A stretch of DNA of 64,000 nucleotides from Nocardioides sp. CER19 (GTDB taxonomy: Bacteria; Actinomycetota; Actinomycetes; Propionibacteriales; Nocardioidaceae). Both the position numbers and the translations under genes were made by a program. Positions 1 to 7,717 of this stretch are shown here, piece by piece. The stretch covers positions 1,116,001 through 1,180,000 of the forward strand of contig NZ_JARVWS010000001.1 in the NCBI RefSeq assembly GCF_029846275.1, given 5' to 3'. Within the stretch, counting starts at the first letter, position 1. Each line of letters opens with the position of its first letter. Under the pieces are notes generated by a model, which saw nothing but the letters and a program-made list of their open reading frames with translations, was not told where the DNA came from and ran no database searches.

Positions 1-722
1 GCGCCTCCGTGCTGCCGTACGGCGGCTTCGCCGACGTCGCGCTCATGGACGTCGCGACCACCTTCCCCGCGCCCGCGTCCCTCGACGACGCCCAGGCGGC
101 GTCCCTCTACATCGGCTACCAGACCGGCTGGTTCGGCCTGCACCGGCGAGCCGGCCTGCGCGCCGGTGAGACGCTGCTCGTCCATGCCGCGGCGGGCGGT
201 GTCGGCAGCGCGGCCGTCCAGCTCGGCAAGGCGGCGGGCGCGACGGTGATCGGGGTCGTCGGCGGCCCCGAGAAGGCGGCGGTCGCCCGCGAGCTCGGCT
301 CCGACGTCGTGGTCGACCGGCACACCGAGGACTTCGTCCAGGTGGTCAAGGAGCACACCGGCGGCCGCGGCGCCGACGTCGTCTACGACCCGGTCGGCGG
401 TGACACCTACCAGCGGTCCACCAAGTGCGTGGCGTTCGAGGGCCGCATCCTCGTGATCGGCTTCGCCGGCGGCGAGATCCAGTCGGCCGCGCTCAACCAC
501 GCGCTGATCAAGAACTACTCGATCGTCGGGCTGCACTGGGGCCTCTACAACGTCGTCGACCCGGCCGCCGTGGCGGAGTGCCACCGGGCGCTCACCGACC
601 TCGCCGACCGGGGCCTGGTGCGACCGCTGGTGAGCGAGCGGATCTCCCTCGAGCGCGCGGCGGACGGCGTACAGCGGCTTGCCGACGGGGCCACGGTCGG
701 TCGCGTGGTGGTCACGCCGTGA
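1..722 (+). CDS. NADPH:quinone oxidoreductase-like zinc-independent alcohol dehydrogenase family protein (5' partial)
   Basis: The reading frame is open from the left edge, so the N-terminal GroES-like domain is partly missing. The visible 239 codons hold the Rossmann domain of the MDR superfamily: the nucleotide-binding segment HAAAGGVGSAAVQLGKAAGA, then a typical quinone-reductase stretch (GGRGADVVYDPVGGD) and the C-terminal VGRVVV strand. Members reduce quinones or enals with NADPH. Its stop codon overlaps the GTG start of the next gene, so it probably belongs to the acyl-CoA operon that follows, perhaps handling an unsaturated intermediate. The exact substrate cannot be read from sequence. 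Confidence 0.85.
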   Translation, partial: ASVLPYGGFADVALMDVATTFPAPASLDDAQAASLYIGYQTGWFGLHRRAGLRAGETLLVHAAAGGVGSAAVQLGKAAGATVIGVVGGPEKAAVARELGSDVVVDRHTEDFVQVVKEHTGGRGADVVYDPVGGDTYQRSTKCVAFEGRILVIGFAGGEIQSAALNHALIKNYSIVGLHWGLYNVVDPAAVAECHRALTDLADRGLVRPLVSERISLERAADGVQRLADGATVGRVVVTP

Positions 723-1378
723 GCGAGGTCGAGGCGGTCGTCTTCGACTACGGCGGCGTGATGACGACCCCGGTCCGCGACTCGATCGCCGCGTGGCTCG
801 CGGCCGACGGCATCGACCCGGAGTCGTTCAGCCGCACGCTCAAGGCGTGGCTGTCCCGGGGCGCGCCGGCCGGCACGCCGGTCCACCGGCTGGAGACCGG
901 TGAGCTGACACCGGACGAGTTCGGCACGCTGCTCGCCGCCGAGCTGGTGACCCACCACGGCGACCCGGTCGTCGCCGACGGCGTCGTGGCCCGGCTCTTC
1001 GCGGGCATGCGCGCGGAGCCGGCCATGTTCGACCTGGTCACCGAGCTGCGCGGTCTCGGGGTGCGGACCGCGATGCTGTCCAACAGCTGGGGCAACACCT
1101 ACCCGCGCGAGCGGATCGCCGAGGTCTTCGACGAGATCGTGATCTCCGGCGAGGTCGGGCTCCGCAAGCCGCAGGCCGAGATCTACCGGCTCGTCCTCGA
1201 CGGCCTGGAGGTCGCGCCGGAGCGCGCCGTCTTCGTCGACGACGCCGAGCCGAACCTCGCGGGCGCGCGCGACGTCGGGCTCCGCACCGTCCTGCACACC
1301 GACCCGGCCGGCACCCGCGCGGCGCTCGCCGCGCTCGTCCCGGGCCTGCGCGCCCATCTGGAGGGAAACGATGACTGA
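719..1378 (+). CDS. HAD-IA family hydrolase, ACAD10 N-terminal-domain-like
   Basis: 219 aa from a GTG that overlaps the previous stop (GTGA). HAD motif I reads VFDYGGV (Asp10). The usual second Asp of DxD is Gly, as I recall is also typical of the soluble epoxide hydrolase/ACAD10-type HAD domains. Motif II is AMLSNSW, motif III the Lys of GLRKPQAEIY, and motif IV VFVDDAEPN. The DxD change makes ordinary phosphatase activity uncertain. The gene overlaps the kinase gene downstream by 8 nt. HAD, kinase and acyl-CoA dehydrogenase in this order mirror the fused ACAD10 protein, so a role with the kinase on hydroxyacyl-CoA is inferred. Confidence 0.85.
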   Translation: MSEVEAVVFDYGGVMTTPVRDSIAAWLAADGIDPESFSRTLKAWLSRGAPAGTPVHRLETGELTPDEFGTLLAAELVTHHGDPVVADGVVARLFAGMRAEPAMFDLVTELRGLGVRTAMLSNSWGNTYPRERIAEVFDEIVISGEVGLRKPQAEIYRLVLDGLEVAPERAVFVDDAEPNLAGARDVGLRTVLHTDPAGTRAALAALVPGLRAHLEGNDD

Positions 1379-2390
1379 CGTCCCCGGCCTCGACCTGCCC
1401 CGGCTCGGCGCCTGGTTCGCCGGGCACGTGGTCCCGACCGGCGAGGTACGCCTGACCGCCCGGCACATCAGCGGCGGCAAGTCCAACCTCACCTACGAGG
1501 TGTCCGACGGCACCCGCGCGTGGATCGTACGGCGGCCCCCGCTCGGCCACGTCCTGGCGACCGCGCACGACATGGCCCGCGAGTACCGCGTGATGACCGC
1601 GCTCCGGAACACCGCCGTTCCCGTCCCGCTCACCTACGCGCTGTGCGAGGACGCCGAGGTCGTCGGGGCGCCGTTCTACGTGATGGAGCTGGTCGACGGC
1701 GTGCCCTACCGCCGGCGCTCGGAGCTCGAGGCGCTCGGGCCCGACCGGACCCGCGCCATCAGCGAGCGCCTGGTCGACACGCTGGTCGCGCTGCACGCCG
1801 TGGACCCGGTCGCGGTCGGGCTGGCCGACTTCGGACGCCCCGAGGGCTTCCTGGCCCGTCAGGTCGGCCGCTGGAAGAAGCAGATGGACGCGTCGTACCA
1901 CCGCGACCTCCCGGCCGCCGGCGAGCTGCACGCCCGCCTCGCCGAGAGCGTGCCGGCGGAGGGCGCCGCCGGCATCGTGCACGGCGACTTCCGGCTCGAC
2001 AACGTGCTGGTCGGCGCCGAGACCGACCGGATCAACGCCGTCGTCGACTGGGAGATGGCCACGCTCGGCGACCCGCTCACCGACCTGGCGCTGATGCTGC
2101 TCTACCAGCGGCTCGCCGCCTTCGGTGGCTCCGTCGTGAGCGACGTCAGCACCGCACCCGGCTACCTGTCGGAGTCGGAGATCCTGGCGCGCTACGACGC
2201 GGCGAGCCACCGCGACCTCGGTCGGTTCGGCTTCTACCTGGGACTCGCGGCCTACAAGCTCGCCGCGATCCTCGAAGGCATCCACTACCGCTACCTCCAG
2301 GGCCAGACGGTCGGGGAGGGCTTCGACACCATCGGCGACGCCATCCACCCGCTGCTGGAGGCCGGGCTGAAGGCACTCAAGGAGGACTGA
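1371..2390 (+). CDS. APH-fold phosphotransferase, ACAD10/11 kinase-domain-like
   Basis: 339 aa with an aminoglycoside phosphotransferase/choline kinase fold. The catalytic loop is IVHGDFRLDNVLV (about residues 201-213) and the metal-binding motif is VVDWEMATLGDPLTDLALM (about 223-241). This subgroup lies next to acyl-CoA dehydrogenases. In ACAD10/11 and in the Pseudomonas levulinate pathway the equivalent kinase phosphorylates 4-hydroxyacyl-CoA, and the dehydrogenase then removes phosphate. Here it overlaps the HAD gene upstream and the dehydrogenase downstream (TGATG), which supports that role over antibiotic resistance. The substrate is inferred. Confidence 0.88.
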   Translation: MTDVPGLDLPRLGAWFAGHVVPTGEVRLTARHISGGKSNLTYEVSDGTRAWIVRRPPLGHVLATAHDMAREYRVMTALRNTAVPVPLTYALCEDAEVVGAPFYVMELVDGVPYRRRSELEALGPDRTRAISERLVDTLVALHAVDPVAVGLADFGRPEGFLARQVGRWKKQMDASYHRDLPAAGELHARLAESVPAEGAAGIVHGDFRLDNVLVGAETDRINAVVDWEMATLGDPLTDLALMLLYQRLAAFGGSVVSDVSTAPGYLSESEILARYDAASHRDLGRFGFYLGLAAYKLAAILEGIHYRYLQGQTVGEGFDTIGDAIHPLLEAGLKALKED

Positions 2391-3610
2391 TGGACTTCTC
2401 GTTCGACGAGCGCACCGAGGAGCTGCGCGCCACCCTGCTCGACTTCATGAAGACCCAGGTCGAGCCCGCCGAGGCGGTCTTCTCCGACCAGCTCGGGTCC
2501 TCGGGCGACCGATGGGCCTGGGACGCGGTGCCTGTGATGGCGCAGCTGCGCGAGGAGGCCCGCCGCCGCGGGCTCTGGAACCTCTTCCTGCCCGGGGACG
2601 CGGGCGCCGGGCTGACGAACCTGCAGTACGCCCCGCTCGCGGAGATCAGCGGGCGCAGCCACCTCGCGCCGGCGGCGATGAACTGCGCCGCGCCCGACAC
2701 CGGCAACATGGAGGTGCTGCACCAGTTCGGGAGCGAGGACCACCAGAAGGAGTGGCTCCAGCCGCTCCTCGACGGCCGGATCCGCTCGGCCTTCGCGATG
2801 ACCGAGCCCGACGTGGCCTCCTCGGACGCGACCAACATCCAGCTCAGCATCGTCCGCGACGGCGACTCCTACGTGCTCAACGGGCGCAAGTGGTGGATCA
2901 CCGGCGCGATGAACCCGAACTGCCGCGTCTTCATCGTGATGGGGAAGACCGACCCGTCCGCCGAGCGGCACCGCCAGCAGTCGATGATCCTCGTCCCGCG
3001 CGACGCCCCCGGGCTCGAGGTCGTGCGCGCCATGCACGTCCTCGGGTACGACGACCACGACCACGGCGGCCACGCCGAGCTGTCCTTCACCGACGTCCGC
3101 GTGCCGGTCAGCAACCTGATCGGCGAGGAGGGCGCCGGCTTCGCGATCGCCCAGGCCCGGCTCGGCCCTGGCCGCATCCACCACTGCATGCGGTCGATCG
3201 GCGTTGCCGAGCGCGCGATCGAGCTGATGTGTGCGCGGGCGGCGAGCCGGGTGGCGTTCGGTCGACCGATCGCCGACCAGGGCGTCGTACGCGACTGGAT
3301 CGCGGAGTCCCGGGTGCGCATCGAGCAGCTCCGGCTGCTGGTCCTCAAGACCGCGTGGCTGATGGACACCGTCGGCAACCGCGGCGCGCACACCGAGATC
3401 CAGGCGATCAAGATCGCCACGCCGGCCACGGTGCAGTGGATCCTCGACAAGGCCATCCAGGTGCACGGCGCCGGGGGTCTCTCACAGGACTTCCCGCTGG
3501 CCGCCGCGTACGCCGGCATCCGCACGCTGCGCTTCGCCGACGGTCCCGACGAGGTGCACAAGAACGCGCTCGCCAAGGCCGAGCTGCGCCGCCAGGAGGC
3601 CGCCCGATGA
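2390..3610 (+). CDS. Acyl-CoA dehydrogenase, ACAD10/11-like
   Basis: 406 aa, the usual length. It has the flavin and substrate signatures AMTEPDVASSDATN and WWITGAMNPNC, and the C-terminal helix region QVHGAGGLSQDFPLA. Near the C-terminus RFADGPDEVHKNALAKAEL puts Asp where medium-chain dehydrogenases have the catalytic Glu (YEGT). The ADGPDEVH form is characteristic of the ACAD10/11 branch. The start ATG shares its A with the kinase stop codon, so the two are translationally coupled. I infer that it acts on the phosphorylated acyl-CoA made by the kinase. Confidence 0.92.
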   Translation: MDFSFDERTEELRATLLDFMKTQVEPAEAVFSDQLGSSGDRWAWDAVPVMAQLREEARRRGLWNLFLPGDAGAGLTNLQYAPLAEISGRSHLAPAAMNCAAPDTGNMEVLHQFGSEDHQKEWLQPLLDGRIRSAFAMTEPDVASSDATNIQLSIVRDGDSYVLNGRKWWITGAMNPNCRVFIVMGKTDPSAERHRQQSMILVPRDAPGLEVVRAMHVLGYDDHDHGGHAELSFTDVRVPVSNLIGEEGAGFAIAQARLGPGRIHHCMRSIGVAERAIELMCARAASRVAFGRPIADQGVVRDWIAESRVRIEQLRLLVLKTAWLMDTVGNRGAHTEIQAIKIATPATVQWILDKAIQVHGAGGLSQDFPLAAAYAGIRTLRFADGPDEVHKNALAKAELRRQEAAR

Positions 3611-4794
3611 CGCCCGCGGAGCTCCGCGGCCGGGTCGAGGCGTTCCTCGCCGAGCACCCGCCCGCCACCACGGAGCGCAGCGTGTTCCTCCACGCCCGCT
3701 ACGCCGCCGGGCTGGCCTGGGTCCACTTCCCGGAGGGCCACGGCGGCCTCGGGCTGTCGCGCGGCCTGCACCCGATGGTCGAGGCACTGTTCGCGGCGGC
3801 CGGTGCCCCGGACAACAACCCGCGCGCCAACGGCATCGGGCTGGGCATGGTGGCGCCGACGCTGCTCGCTTACGGCAGCGAGGAGCAGTGCCGCCGCTAC
3901 CTGGAGCCGCTGTGGTGCGGCGAGGAGATCTGGTGCCAGCTCTTCTCCGAGCCGGGCGCCGGCTCGGACCTGGCCGGGCTCGCCACCCGGGCGGTCCCCG
4001 ACGGCGACTCGTGGGTCGTCAACGGGCAGAAGGTGTGGACCTCCGGCGCCCACAACGCCGACCTCGCGATCCTGGTCGCCCGCACCGATCCCGACGTACC
4101 CAAGCACCGCGGCATCACCTACTTCCTGGTGGACATGAAGGAGCCGGGCGTCGACGTCCGGCCGCTGCGCCAGATCACCGGCGAGGCGGAGTTCAACGAG
4201 GTGTTCCTGACCGACGTACGCATCCCGGACGCGATGCGGGTGGGCGACGTCGGGGACGGCTGGCGGGTCGCCAACGGCACCCTCAACAACGAGCGGGTCG
4301 CCATCGGCGGCCATGCGGTGCCGCGCGAGGGCGGCATGCTCGGCGTGGTGGCGCGGTCGTGGCGCGACCGCCCCGAGCAGCACACCCCCGAGCTGCACGA
4401 CCGGCTGATGCGGTTGTGGGTCGAGACCGAGGTCGCCCGGCTCACCGGTCAGCGGCTCCGCCAGCAGCTCGCCGCGGGCCAGCCCGGCCCGGCCGGCGCG
4501 GCCATGAAGCTCACCTTCGCGCGGCTCCACCAGCAGCTCACCGGCCTCGACCTGGAGATCCGGGGCGAGGAGGGGCTGCGCTACGAGAGCGAACCCGGCT
4601 GGGACATGGTCCGGCCATCGCACGTCGACTTCACCGGTCGCGACGCCGTCTACCGCTACCTGCGCGCCAAGGGGAACTCCATCGAGGGCGGCACCTCGGA
4701 GATCCTCCGCAACATCGTGGCCGAGCGGGTGCTGGGCCTTCCGGCCGAGCCCCGCGTCGACAAGGACGTCCCCTGGAAGGAGGTGCCGCGATGA
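3607..4794 (+). CDS. Acyl-CoA dehydrogenase
   Basis: 395 aa, full length. FAD/substrate motifs are FSEPGAGSDLAGLATRA and GQKVWTSGAHNADLAI. The C-terminal segment SIEGGTSEILRNIVAERVLG is typical of actinobacterial FadE proteins. The ATG overlaps the preceding stop (ATGA), and its own stop overlaps the next dehydrogenase in the same way. Adjacent FadE genes of about 395 and 370 aa often encode the two subunits of an alpha2beta2 dehydrogenase, as in steroid side-chain degradation. That is a plausible reading of this pair, with an unknown substrate. Confidence 0.92.
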   Translation: MTPAELRGRVEAFLAEHPPATTERSVFLHARYAAGLAWVHFPEGHGGLGLSRGLHPMVEALFAAAGAPDNNPRANGIGLGMVAPTLLAYGSEEQCRRYLEPLWCGEEIWCQLFSEPGAGSDLAGLATRAVPDGDSWVVNGQKVWTSGAHNADLAILVARTDPDVPKHRGITYFLVDMKEPGVDVRPLRQITGEAEFNEVFLTDVRIPDAMRVGDVGDGWRVANGTLNNERVAIGGHAVPREGGMLGVVARSWRDRPEQHTPELHDRLMRLWVETEVARLTGQRLRQQLAAGQPGPAGAAMKLTFARLHQQLTGLDLEIRGEEGLRYESEPGWDMVRPSHVDFTGRDAVYRYLRAKGNSIEGGTSEILRNIVAERVLGLPAEPRVDKDVPWKEVPR

Positions 4795-5903
4795 ACGACG
4801 CGACCACCGGTGCCGACCTCGACGAGCTCGAGCTGCTCGACTCCGACGACGACCGCGACCTGCGCGCCGCGGTCGCCGGCTTCCTCGCCGACCGGTGCCC
4901 GTCGGGCGGCGTCGCCGCGATCTACGACGGGGACCGCGCCCTGGTCGAGCCGCTGTGGCGCGGGCTCGCCACGGAGCTCGGGCTGGCGGGCCTGCTCGTC
5001 CCGGAGGAGTACGGCGGCGCCGGTGCCGGCTCGCGAGACGCCGCCGTGGTCCTCGAGGAGCTCGGCCGGTCCGTGGCGCCGGTGCCGTTCCTGACGAGTG
5101 CCGTCGTCGCGACCACCGTGCTGGCGCAGGCGCCGACCGACGCCGGCCGCGAGCTGCTCGCCGATCTCGCCGAGGGCCGGCGCACCGCCGCGCTCGTGGT
5201 CCCGCTCTCCACGAGCCTGTCGGGCGCGCGCCCGGTCGCTGGCACCGTCCGCAGCGTGGCCGGAGCGCTCGAGGCCGACACCCTGCTGGTGCCGGTCGCG
5301 TCCGCCGTCGGGCTCGAGCTGCGCGCCGTCCCGGCGGCCGAGGCCACCACGGACCCGGTGGTCTCGCTCGACATGAGCCGACAGCTCGCGGACGTCACCG
5401 CCGACCCGGCGGCCGGAACGGTCGTCGTCACGGGGGACGCGACGGCCGCCGTACGGGCCGGGCTGCTCGCGGGCACCGCCCTGCTCGCCTCCGAGCAGCT
5501 CGGGGTCGCGCAGTGGTGCCTGGCGACGACCGTCGGCTACCTCAAGGAGCGACGTCAGTTCGGCCGCGTCGTGGGCGGCTTCCAGGCGCTCAAGCACCGC
5601 CTCGCCGACCTCTACACCTCGGTGGAGGGCGCGACCGCGGCGGCGCGCTACGCCGCGGCCGTGCTGGCCGTCGACCCGGCGGGCGACGAGACGGAGATCG
5701 CGACGCGCATCGCGGCGGCGTGGTGCTCCGACCTGGCGGTGCTGGCCGCGGAGGAGGCGGTCCAGCTGCACGGCGGCATCGGCATGACGTGGGAGCACCC
5801 CGCCCACCTCTACCTCAAGCGCGCCAAGGCCGACCAGCTCGCGCTGGGCCTGCCGGGTCATCACCGGGCGCGGCTGGGGGAGCTGGTCGGGCTCGTGCCG
5901 TGA
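4791..5903 (+). CDS. Acyl-CoA dehydrogenase, probable partner subunit
   Basis: 370 aa, shorter and Ala/Val-rich, with a weakly conserved central beta domain. N-terminal helices (LAGLLVPEEYGGAGAG) and the C-terminal bundle (ERRQFGRVVGGFQALKHRLA, QLHGGIGMTWEHPAHLYLKR) identify the family. The middle lacks the clear TEP..GSD flavin/substrate motif seen in the gene upstream. This is the pattern of the second subunit in heteromeric FadE enzymes. It is the last gene of the overlapping run; 62 bp separate it from glpD, which has its own promoter. Confidence 0.9.
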   Translation: MNDATTGADLDELELLDSDDDRDLRAAVAGFLADRCPSGGVAAIYDGDRALVEPLWRGLATELGLAGLLVPEEYGGAGAGSRDAAVVLEELGRSVAPVPFLTSAVVATTVLAQAPTDAGRELLADLAEGRRTAALVVPLSTSLSGARPVAGTVRSVAGALEADTLLVPVASAVGLELRAVPAAEATTDPVVSLDMSRQLADVTADPAAGTVVVTGDATAAVRAGLLAGTALLASEQLGVAQWCLATTVGYLKERRQFGRVVGGFQALKHRLADLYTSVEGATAAARYAAAVLAVDPAGDETEIATRIAAAWCSDLAVLAAEEAVQLHGGIGMTWEHPAHLYLKRAKADQLALGLPGHHRARLGELVGLVP

Positions 5904-5965: not shown

Positions 5966-7717
5966 ATGAGCCAGCCCCCGCTGACGCCCGGTGTGCTCGG
6001 ACCCGCCGCCCGTGACGCCGCCCTCGCGGCGATGAGCGGGGCCGCGGGCGAGGCCGAGCTCGACGTCCTCGTCGTGGGCGGCGGTGTCGTCGGTGCCGGC
6101 GTCGCGCTCGACGCGGTCACCCGCGGGCTGTCCACGGGGCTGCTCGAGCAGCGCGACCTCGCCTCCGGCACCAGCAGTCGCAGCAGCAAGCTGATCCATG
6201 GCGGCCTGCGCTACCTCGAGATGATGGACTTCGCGCTGGTCCGCGAGGCCCTCACCGAGCGCGGTCTGCTGCTCACCCGCCTGGCGCCGCACCTCGTGCG
6301 GCCGGTGCCGTTCCTCTACCCGCTCACCCACAAGGGCTGGGAGCGTCCCTACGTCGGGGCCGGCCTCGCCCTCTACGACGGCATGGCGGCCGTCGGCGGC
6401 ATGAAGGCGGGCGGGGGCTCGGGGCTGCCCCGCCACCGCCACCTCACGCGGCGCGGCGTCGCCCGGATCGCTCCTGACTTCAGGTCCGAGACGGTCTCGG
6501 GTGCGATCAAGTACTACGACTGCCAGGTCGACGACGCCCGCCTGGTCACCACGATCGCCCGGACGGCCGCCCGGCACGGTGCCCACGTCGCCACCCGCGT
6601 CCGGGTCACCGGCTTCCTCCGCGAGGGCGAGCGGGTGGTCGGCGTGACGGCGCGCGACCTGGAGCACGGCCGTGACCTCGAGGTGAGGGCACGCGTGGTC
6701 GTCAACGCGGCCGGCGTCTGGACCGACGAGATCCAGGAGATGGTCGGCGGCCGCGGCGCCCTGCACGTGCAGGCGTCGAAGGGCGTCCACCTCGTCGTAC
6801 CCCGCGACCGGATCCGCAGCGACTCCGGCTTCATCGTGCGCACCGAGACGTCGGTGCTCTTCGTGATCCCGTGGGGCCGGCACTGGATCATCGGCACCAC
6901 CGACACCGACTGGAACCTCGACAAGGCGCACCCGGCCGCCTCGAAGGCCGACATCGACTACATCCTCACCCACGTCAACGCGATCCTGCGCGAGCCGCTC
7001 GACCACGAAGACGTCGAGGGTGTGTACGCCGGCCTGCGACCGCTGCTGGCCGGGGAGTCGGAGCCGAGCAGCAAGATCAGCCGCGAGCACACCGTCGTCA
7101 CCCCCGTGCCGGGCCTGGTGATGATCGCGGGCGGCAAGCTGACGACCTACCGCGTCATGGCGAAGGACGCCGTCGACGCCGCCGCGCACAGCCTGCGCGC
7201 CATCGCGAACCTGAGCCTGCGCGAGTCGATCACTGACAAGGTGCGGCTGCTAGGCGCCGACGCCTACGAGACCCGCGCCAACCAGCGCGTCCTGCTGGCC
7301 CGGCGCTCCGGGCTGCACGTCGCGCGGATCGACCACCTGCTCGGGCGCTACGGCGGCCTCGTCGACGACATCCTCGACCTCGTCGCGGAGCGCCGCTCGC
7401 TCGGCGCACCGCTCCAGGGCGCCGAGGACTACCTCGCCGCCGAGGTGGTCTACGCGGTCACCCACGAGGGTGCGCGCCACCTCGACGACGTGCTCACCCG
7501 CCGGACCCGGATCTCGATCGAGACCTTCGACCGCGGCGTCACGGCGGCACCCTGCGCCGCCCGGTTGATGGCGGCCGAGCTCGGCTGGTCGACGGAGACC
7601 GTGCGCGAGGAGGTCGACCACTACCTGCGCCGGGTCGAGGCGGAGCGTCAGTCGCAGCTGATGCCGACCGACCAGGAGGCCGACGAGGCGCGGATCCAGG
7701 TCACCGACATCGTGTGA
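5966..7717 (+). CDS. glpD: Aerobic glycerol-3-phosphate dehydrogenase
   Basis: 583 aa, full length for GlpD. It oxidises sn-glycerol 3-phosphate to dihydroxyacetone phosphate and passes electrons to the quinone pool at the membrane. The FAD-binding motif is VLVVGGGVVGAGVALDAVTR (about residues 33-52). The hallmark SSRSSKLIHGGLRYLE follows, and the second nucleotide-contact region is VPGLVMIAGGKLTTYRVMAK. The C-terminal DAO_C domain follows to residue 583. No glpF or glpK lies beside it. A GDPD gene at 44485 could also feed glycerol 3-phosphate to this enzyme. Confidence 0.95.
   Translation: MSQPPLTPGVLGPAARDAALAAMSGAAGEAELDVLVVGGGVVGAGVALDAVTRGLSTGLLEQRDLASGTSSRSSKLIHGGLRYLEMMDFALVREALTERGLLLTRLAPHLVRPVPFLYPLTHKGWERPYVGAGLALYDGMAAVGGMKAGGGSGLPRHRHLTRRGVARIAPDFRSETVSGAIKYYDCQVDDARLVTTIARTAARHGAHVATRVRVTGFLREGERVVGVTARDLEHGRDLEVRARVVVNAAGVWTDEIQEMVGGRGALHVQASKGVHLVVPRDRIRSDSGFIVRTETSVLFVIPWGRHWIIGTTDTDWNLDKAHPAASKADIDYILTHVNAILREPLDHEDVEGVYAGLRPLLAGESEPSSKISREHTVVTPVPGLVMIAGGKLTTYRVMAKDAVDAAAHSLRAIANLSLRESITDKVRLLGADAYETRANQRVLLARRSGLHVARIDHLLGRYGGLVDDILDLVAERRSLGAPLQGAEDYLAAEVVYAVTHEGARHLDDVLTRRTRISIETFDRGVTAAPCAARLMAAELGWSTETVREEVDHYLRRVEAERQSQLMPTDQEADEARIQVTDIV

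Follow-up and report, generated by a model that had tools for sequence, protein, structure and literature searches.

Is a row of three overlapping bacterial genes that encodes the domains of the animal protein ACAD10 a split form of that protein, and what does its HAD member do? The question is raised by a stretch of 64,000 nucleotides from Nocardioides sp. CER19 (contig NZ_JARVWS010000001.1, positions 1,116,001 to 1,180,000 of the forward strand; hereafter the window), near whose start lie genes for a HAD phosphatase-fold protein, a kinase, and an acyl-CoA dehydrogenase (ACAD). The HAD domain of ACAD10 is what is left to explain in a human fatty-acid pathway that was recently solved. In the window, the HAD is a separate protein, open to deletion, mutation, or exchange while the kinase and the dehydrogenase stay as they are. 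Our reading, to which we assign a probability of roughly 0.66, is that these genes belong to a 4-hydroxyacyl-CoA catabolic operon in which the kinase and the dehydrogenase would carry out the chemistry, with the HAD as an accessory partner that would limit the phosphorylated intermediate. The gene order, the overlaps, the catalytic residues, the recurrent linkage, and the branches apart from ACAD10 are the parts of this reading drawn directly from sequence.

The operon occupies the first 5.9 kb of the window on the + strand, and its successive genes are given short names here.

3..722, + strand: QOR, the 3′ part of a zinc-type quinone oxidoreductase gene (PF00107/PF13602) that starts upstream of the window
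719..1378, + strand: HAD, a HAD phosphatase-fold protein and likely kinase partner (PF00702; D10-x-G12, S121, K150, D174-D175)
1371..2390, + strand: kinase, APH-type (PF01636), predicted 4-hydroxyacyl-CoA 4-kinase of the ACAD10/11 kinase domain and LvaA type
2390..3610, + strand: ACAD1, an ACAD11-type acyl-CoA dehydrogenase (PF00441/PF02770/PF02771), predicted to eliminate phosphate from 4-phosphoacyl-CoA, with Asp384 in place of Glu
3607..4794, + strand: ACAD2, a large-subunit-like acyl-CoA dehydrogenase (PF02770/PF00441/PF02771; nearest NCBIfam model pimC_large, under its cut-off)
4791..5903, + strand: ACAD3, a small-subunit-like (IpdE2/pimD-like) acyl-CoA dehydrogenase (PF00441/PF02771; nearest NCBIfam model IpdE2, under its cut-off)

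Neighboring open reading frames (ORFs) overlap by 1–8 bases: the QOR stop with the HAD start at 719-722, HAD with kinase by 8 bases, kinase with ACAD1 by 1 base, ACAD1 with ACAD2 at 3607-3610, and ACAD2 with ACAD3 at 4791-4794. The HAD (719-1378) starts with GTG, and the kinase (1371-2390) and ACAD1 (2390-3610) start with ATG. The ORF coordinates and the Pfam domains agree with the original prediction that three overlapping genes encode HAD, kinase, and ACAD in the order of ACAD10, which is also seen within ACAD10-type proteins (e.g., P0159). These are three ORFs with stops and overlapping starts and not one fused polypeptide. By analogy with known systems, bases 3-5903 make up the downstream part of what is likely a catabolic operon feeding 4-hydroxyacyl-CoAs into β-oxidation.

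The chemistry to be expected comes from mammalian ACAD10 and ACAD11, for which passages of PMC11342911 and PMC12440821 describe phosphorylation at position 4, followed by elimination of the phosphate, assisted by flavin adenine dinucleotide (FAD), to give a 2-enoyl-CoA. The closest solved structures to ACAD1 are the ACAD11 entries 8v3u (E 1.2e-139) and 8v3v, one of which has Asn at the position aligned to the catalytic Asp of ACAD1. In the alignment, FADGPDEVH of ACAD1 matches ADGPDEVH of ACAD11, and the predicted Asp in place of the catalytic Glu is found in 136 of the 143 fetched loci with an ACAD1 match, some of which overlap one another; the remaining 7 do not span the position. Excerpts of PMC12440821 name five residues of ACAD11: R626, H634, and R637, which hold the 4-phosphate, R631, and the base D753. 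Equivalents of all five are found in ACAD1, within RLGPGRIHHCMR and FADGPDEVH, and the 143 loci retain them wherever the match covers them, with the sole exception of one Lys at the place of R637. The kinase has 9o56, 3dxp, and ACAD11 (8v3v/8v3u) as solved relatives and keeps the motifs HGDFRLDN, with the catalytic HGD, and VVDWE, with the metal-binding Asp. Of 117 loci with a kinase match, 113 have its catalytic Asp, and the other 4 do not span the position.

The locus therefore carries both marks of the class that phosphorylates 4-hydroxyacyl-CoA and eliminates phosphate from 4-phosphoacyl-CoA, namely an ACAD with the Asp and the R/R/H/R contacts and an APH-fold kinase with HGD and the metal Asp. 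By analogy, it is highly probable that this is a 4-hydroxyacyl-CoA kinase/eliminase operon. The kinase would phosphorylate the 4-hydroxyl of 4-hydroxyacyl-CoA, and ACAD1 would then eliminate the phosphate through FAD/Asp chemistry to form 2-enoyl-CoA. Chemistry of the ACAD10/11/Lva type, as first proposed for this locus, is very likely given that the catalytic residues checked match ACAD11; the substrate and reactions would be those suggested by ACAD10/11 and Lva biochemistry. ACAD11 itself shares the kinase, the ACAD, and the five conserved ACAD residues with the operon, and differs in being a single chain without a HAD. The Pseudomonas lva operon (LvaA kinase, LvaB, LvaC ACAD), likened here by its published description and not by sequence, has in common the split kinase and ACAD and a catabolic cluster with a short-chain dehydrogenase/reductase (SDR) and a CoA ligase. 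Where the window has a HAD, that operon has the small LvaB or, in P. citronellolis, a histidine phosphatase (PMC6692424). This provides a predicted function for a recurrent actinobacterial operon whose members are now labeled phosphotransferase, acyl-CoA dehydrogenase, and HAD hydrolase.

A survey of HAD neighborhoods, as the original prediction had proposed, indicates a genetic tie between the HAD and the kinase in bacteria. The HAD alignment retrieved at least 572 loci, of which the best 80 are the named loci used here, so that close relatives dominate the sample, and neighbors were counted as tblastn matches above set identities inside the fetched stretch. HAD, kinase, and ACAD1 follow one another on one strand in 47 of these 80 loci (in 34 of them the HAD and kinase matches are less than 150 bases apart), and a kinase or ACAD1 is present in 64. 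Recurrent alternative arrangements are kinase then HAD with a divergent ACAD1, and a HAD divergent from ACAD1. In 118 genomes sampled evenly from the class (ACAD1 match at E <= 1e-100, HAD threshold 1e-15), 56 genomes contain a HAD, with 71 matches, of which 48 lie in 37 genomes that also hold ACAD1. Twenty-two of the 71 matches, spread over 21 genomes, lie no more than 10 kb from ACAD1, compared to 0.28 expected, and chance neighborhood was rejected.

The AlphaFold2 model of the HAD has a mean predicted local distance difference test score of 94.4, and the nearest solved folds to this model are the phosphatase domain of soluble epoxide hydrolase (sEH) and YihX of E. coli. The N-terminal phosphatase of sEH acts on lipid phosphates, and to our knowledge neither it nor YihX is a kinase partner. 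sEH differs from the HAD in keeping the second Asp of D-x-D, while YihX, which also has D-x-G, differs in being a sugar phosphatase according to excerpts of PMC4251788. Motif I of the HAD reads FDYGGV, with D10 present and Gly at +2, and D10, G12, S121, K150, D174, and D175 are identical in 80/80 named loci. The nucleophile Asp, the motif II Ser/Thr, the Lys, and the acidic pair of motif IV are thus present, and the second Asp, the general acid/base, is replaced by Gly12 in every one of these loci, in line with the predicted DYGGV lacking this residue. The same pattern recurs in animals, in which D59, G61, T166, K200, D224, and D225 are invariant in 34 aligned ACAD10-type proteins. A clear D-x-G-G motif occurs in 101 of 120 listed proteins of this type, with 18 lacking a match to the simple pattern and 1 false match; such simple patterns, also used in the comparison of HAD relatives, mis-matched a few rows.

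The role of the HAD, which was initially described as unclear, is not wholly blank. Passages of PMC11342911 report that the HAD of ACAD10 has negligible phosphatase activity on 4-phosphohydroxyhexanoyl-CoA and that the D48A variant of ACAD10 has raised kinase activity, and they interpret the absence of the second Asp as indicating a non-catalytic domain. In the proposed mechanism, the HAD, as accessory partner, would likely stop the phosphorylated intermediate from accumulating. It would most likely engage 4-phosphoacyl-CoA at the D10/Mg site and restrain the kinase, and its dephosphorylation would be at most slow because the usual general acid is Gly. By analogy, the chances are about even that the HAD limits the phospho-intermediate, either via kinase restraint as in ACAD10 or by slow dephosphorylation.

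Several observations weigh against this reading. Neither kinase nor ACAD1 is found in 16 of the 80 named loci, and four kinase-less loci fall inside the window HAD's own clade in a quick 83-row HAD tree. Among the 71 HAD matches of the class survey, 23 are in genomes without an ACAD1 match and 26 more are not near ACAD1, some of them on short contigs. Each of the four further genomes of the same genus in this class sample has the kinase and ACAD1 and no HAD at 1e-15. Judging from these genomes, the HAD is dispensable at the genus level, and the wider HAD family appears to have other lives; taken with the linkage, this makes the HAD a common but optional partner. Use of the HAD apart from the kinase may occur in Streptomyces, where five loci (L081, L082, L083, L088, and L090) have the order thiolase-SDR-HAD and lack kinase and ACAD1 within the fetched stretch, which in L090 stops 500 bases past the HAD. 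On a Rhodococcus opacus plasmid (L191, 13983-19991), the order HAD-FabG-MaoC-kinase is followed by both NAD(P) transhydrogenase subunits, with no adjacent ACAD1. No bacterial HAD-kinase fusion was found among 47 matches by their listed Pfam domains, and the one protein of the 47 with both domains is a nematode ACAD10-type protein. AlphaFold2 gives good domains for a natural animal HAD-kinase protein and a predicted template modeling score of 0.69, which does not amount to a confident fixed interface. Finally, the Gly is not peculiar to kinase partners: most family members without this linkage carry Gly at +2 as well (Cys, Tyr, or Ala in three), and YihX has Gly at the same position and is an active phosphatase, with a kcat of 10.2/s on α-glucose 1-phosphate and 0.09/s on glucose 6-phosphate in passages of PMC4251788. 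The missing Asp is therefore no proof of a non-catalytic role, and, as YihX shows, a D-x-G HAD can be an enzyme, possibly with a requirement for a good leaving group.

This leads to the alternative that survives best, which we regard as possible if rather doubtful: the HAD would be a true phosphatase that clears stalled or wrong phospho-acyl products, such as the wrong stereoisomer or free 4-phospho acids, and would thus serve metabolite repair and not regulation. It fits the identity of all phosphoryl-transfer residues except the second Asp across the 80 named loci and the presence of phosphatases, YihX with its D-x-G among them, in the set of solved relatives. Set against it are the negligible activity of the ACAD10 HAD cited above and the roughly 110-fold slower action of YihX on glucose 6-phosphate than on glucose 1-phosphate (in the same passages of PMC4251788), which suggests that alkyl phosphates may be poor substrates for a D-x-G HAD. 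A further point in favor of the repair reading is that elsewhere an unrelated phosphatase fold occupies the same genomic place.

A histidine phosphatase-fold protein stands in for the HAD, by genomic position, in some Proteobacteria, Deinococcus, and others. Eleven non-actinobacterial loci were taken from plasmid records found by the ACAD1 search. A “histidine phosphatase family protein” adjoins the kinase in 4 of them (Deinococcus twice, Azoarcus, and Azospirillum), and none was found in the stretch of the other 7. A search with this protein returned 39 plasmid records. It stands beside a kinase in at least 26, one of them from Streptomyces, in a count that covers 29 of the 39; two records (Haematobacter and C. 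metallidurans) have no kinase in the fetched stretch, and in one (D. aetherius) the protein is 24 kb from the ACAD1-linked kinase. In 14/14 aligned sequences, two of which come from loci without a kinase match (L247 and L249), R8, H9, R54, and E80 are invariant, and Ser159 occupies the position of the superfamily's second His, which we take to be catalytic and which is present in the references (VSHG in E. coli YtjC; His in 9mmh). The absence of this residue from all 14 argues against repair by an efficient phosphatase, while the suggestion in excerpts of PMC6692424 that the histidine phosphatase may dephosphorylate 4-phosphovaleryl-CoA argues for it.

The two folds appear to alternate. None of the 14 histidine phosphatase loci has a HAD match, the 190 loci of the HAD search, some overlapping, hold a single weak histidine phosphatase match (32% over 104 aa, L118), and no examined locus clearly holds both. 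The kinases with a histidine phosphatase neighbor occur in both halves of a 58-row kinase tree, five rows in each. No histidine phosphatase lies beside ACAD1 in 40 HAD-less actinobacterial loci, drawn from 57 such ACAD1 matches. According to passages of PMC6692424, in the lva cluster of P. citronellolis a histidine phosphatase replaces lvaB, and LvaB (12 kDa) is cited as binding LvaA and as required for growth on levulinate. In a second Azoarcus cluster (L253, 4130-4501), a 123-residue DUF6285 protein (PF19802), near LvaB in size, lies between the kinase and the histidine phosphatase. The P. citronellolis case in these passages is the only link between a 4-hydroxyacyl-CoA kinase and a histidine phosphatase found in the open-licence literature; compared to the parts of that literature found, the generality, the alternation of HAD and histidine phosphatase, and the common loss of a catalytic residue are new.

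A broader form of our reading can tentatively be put forward, though we consider it rather unlikely. The kinase would be hazardous unless braked, and the brake would have evolved several times from unrelated phosphatase folds acting as phosphoryl sensors of 4-phosphoacyl-CoA: one HAD lineage in Actinobacteria, another in ACAD10, and the histidine phosphatase fold in Proteobacteria, Deinococcus, and on a Streptomyces plasmid. In each, the phosphate-accepting residue would be kept (the HAD Asp, the RHG His) and its partner lost (Asp replaced by Gly, the second His by Ser), and such proteins would restrain the kinase rather than act as efficient phosphatases. The comparative data suggest that HADs were paired with such kinases more than once, with another phosphatase fold substituting elsewhere. 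Because the window HAD is free, the choice between regulator and repair phosphatase is directly testable.

Gene content bears on the substrate. In the 80 named loci, the most frequent genes are ACAD1 (59), kinase (52), SDR1 (30), MaoC (28), ACAD2 (23), SDR3/FabG (23), ACAD3 (22), and SDR2 (22), followed by thiolase (18), QOR (18), TetR (13), CoA ligase (8), and a phosphotriesterase-family gene (7). QOR may, as originally suggested, act on the enoyl-CoA. Tsukamurella tyrosinosolvens has a full row: TetR-thiolase-SDR-SDR-QOR-HAD-FabG-MaoC-kinase-ACAD1-ACAD2-ACAD3-phosphotriesterase family-CoA ligase. The seven phosphotriesterase-family genes are in the cluster stretches of four Tsukamurella, Nocardioides phosphati, and two Actinopolyspora (e.g., L114, 14454-15434). 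Phosphotriesterase-like proteins are often lactonases, and this gene is possibly a lactonase that supplies the 4-hydroxy acid. If so, the route would be complete, from γ-lactone to 4-hydroxy acid, CoA ester, kinase, ACAD1, MaoC, SDR, and thiolase. The thiolase, MaoC, FabG, CoA ligase, and lactonase-like genes of relatives point to 4-hydroxy acids or γ-lactones as substrates. Predicted fusions of the kinase, many of them metagenomic, with CoA ligases, SDRs, a thiolase, an α/β-hydrolase, and ACADs are consistent with the same route.

An alternative that we consider improbable is that the operon degrades another substrate, such as an acyl-CoA that is branched or cyclic and carries a 4-hydroxyl or other hydroxyl, with the HAD acting on some unrelated phosphoester of that pathway. 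Members of the wider HAD family do occur in genomes without a kinase or ACAD1 match, including genomes of 1.0–1.7 Mb, some of them incomplete, and ACAD2 and ACAD3 resemble pimeloyl and IpdE-type dehydrogenase subunits. However, ACAD1 retains the three residues proposed to hold the 4-phosphate, and the HAD often directly adjoins the kinase.

The remaining question is that of descent. Quick trees of 79 kinase rows and 83 HAD rows were replaced by careful trees on hand-picked subsets, both unrooted. The careful kinase tree has 58 rows (50 of the 79 plus 8 ACAD10s), and the careful HAD tree has 55 (48 of the 83 plus 6 ACAD10s and human sEH). The HAD tree omits all 8 “other” rows, 14 of 21 unlinked rows including the four kinase-less ones from the window HAD's clade, 8 upstream rows, 4 divergent rows, and the nematode ACAD10; two of the eight chosen ACAD10 HADs were dropped when the motif search missed them. 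The window kinase groups with actinobacterial kinases, and eight animal ACAD10s (100/99), ACAD11, 3dxp, and proteobacterial kinases lie across a 100/100 branch. The window HAD lies within a 97/96 clade of HADs found upstream of kinases, and six ACAD10s, together with TIGR02247-type HADs and human sEH, lie across a 100/99 branch. In approximately unbiased (AU) tests, with groupings chosen after the quick trees were inspected, joining the kinases of the HAD-upstream set with ACAD10 gave p 2e-64 and joining those of both HAD sets gave p 7e-5. For the HAD, the upstream set with ACAD10 gave p 1e-4, and the broadest grouping with ACAD10 gave p 0.038, a weak rejection.

Membership of the window HAD in TIGR02247 (HAD-1A3) was rejected, at 89.2 bits compared to a curated cut-off of 125.4. 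In 100 genomes of the phylum, five HADs (L176-L180) exceed this cut-off, and the stretches fetched around them contained no match to the kinase or ACAD1. These five are the bacterial HADs closest to that of ACAD10 in the tree.

HADs without known kinase partnership (sEH, the TIGR02247 type, and YihX) are on both sides of the HAD-tree split, which makes two HAD-kinase unions likelier than one. Judging from these trees, the pairing probably arose separately in Actinobacteria and in animal ACAD10. As a counterpart of ACAD10 (PMC11342911, PMC12440821), the window trio therefore stands in part: the domain order, the ACAD Asp, the HAD D-x-G with T/S, K, and DD, and both predicted reactions are in common, while the window differs in its separate overlapping genes, its kinase and HAD of other branches, and its operon with β-oxidation genes. 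Common descent is not supported, the relatives of both HAD and kinase having been found outside the ACAD10 branch, an outcome that the original prediction had itself counted against its claim. That the trio is a true split ortholog, a bacterial ancestor of the fused animal gene, has very little left to recommend it beyond the shared domain order, D-x-G motif, and Asp dehydrogenase and the formal chance of one ancient union followed by many losses, given the splits at 100/100 and 100/99 and the AU results, of which only the broadest HAD grouping is weak, and it was rejected.

The catabolic setting extends beyond the listed genes. The QOR frame continues upstream of the window edge (L004 stretch), its nearest NCBIfam model, in a scan of the gene fragment, being the PIG3 family, with a score under the cut-off, and directly upstream lie two SDRs, one identified by Pfam and one read from the sequence, and a divergent TetR regulator. 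The same genome holds a second copy (L005) with the order thiolase-SDR-SDR-HAD-FabG-MaoC-kinase-ACAD1 and a divergent TetR, whose HAD, kinase, and ACAD1 share 63, 67, and 85% identity with the window proteins. On the other side, 62 bases after the last stop of the operon and on the + strand, the window contains a glycerol-3-phosphate dehydrogenase/oxidase-type gene (5966-7717; PF01266 and PF16901).

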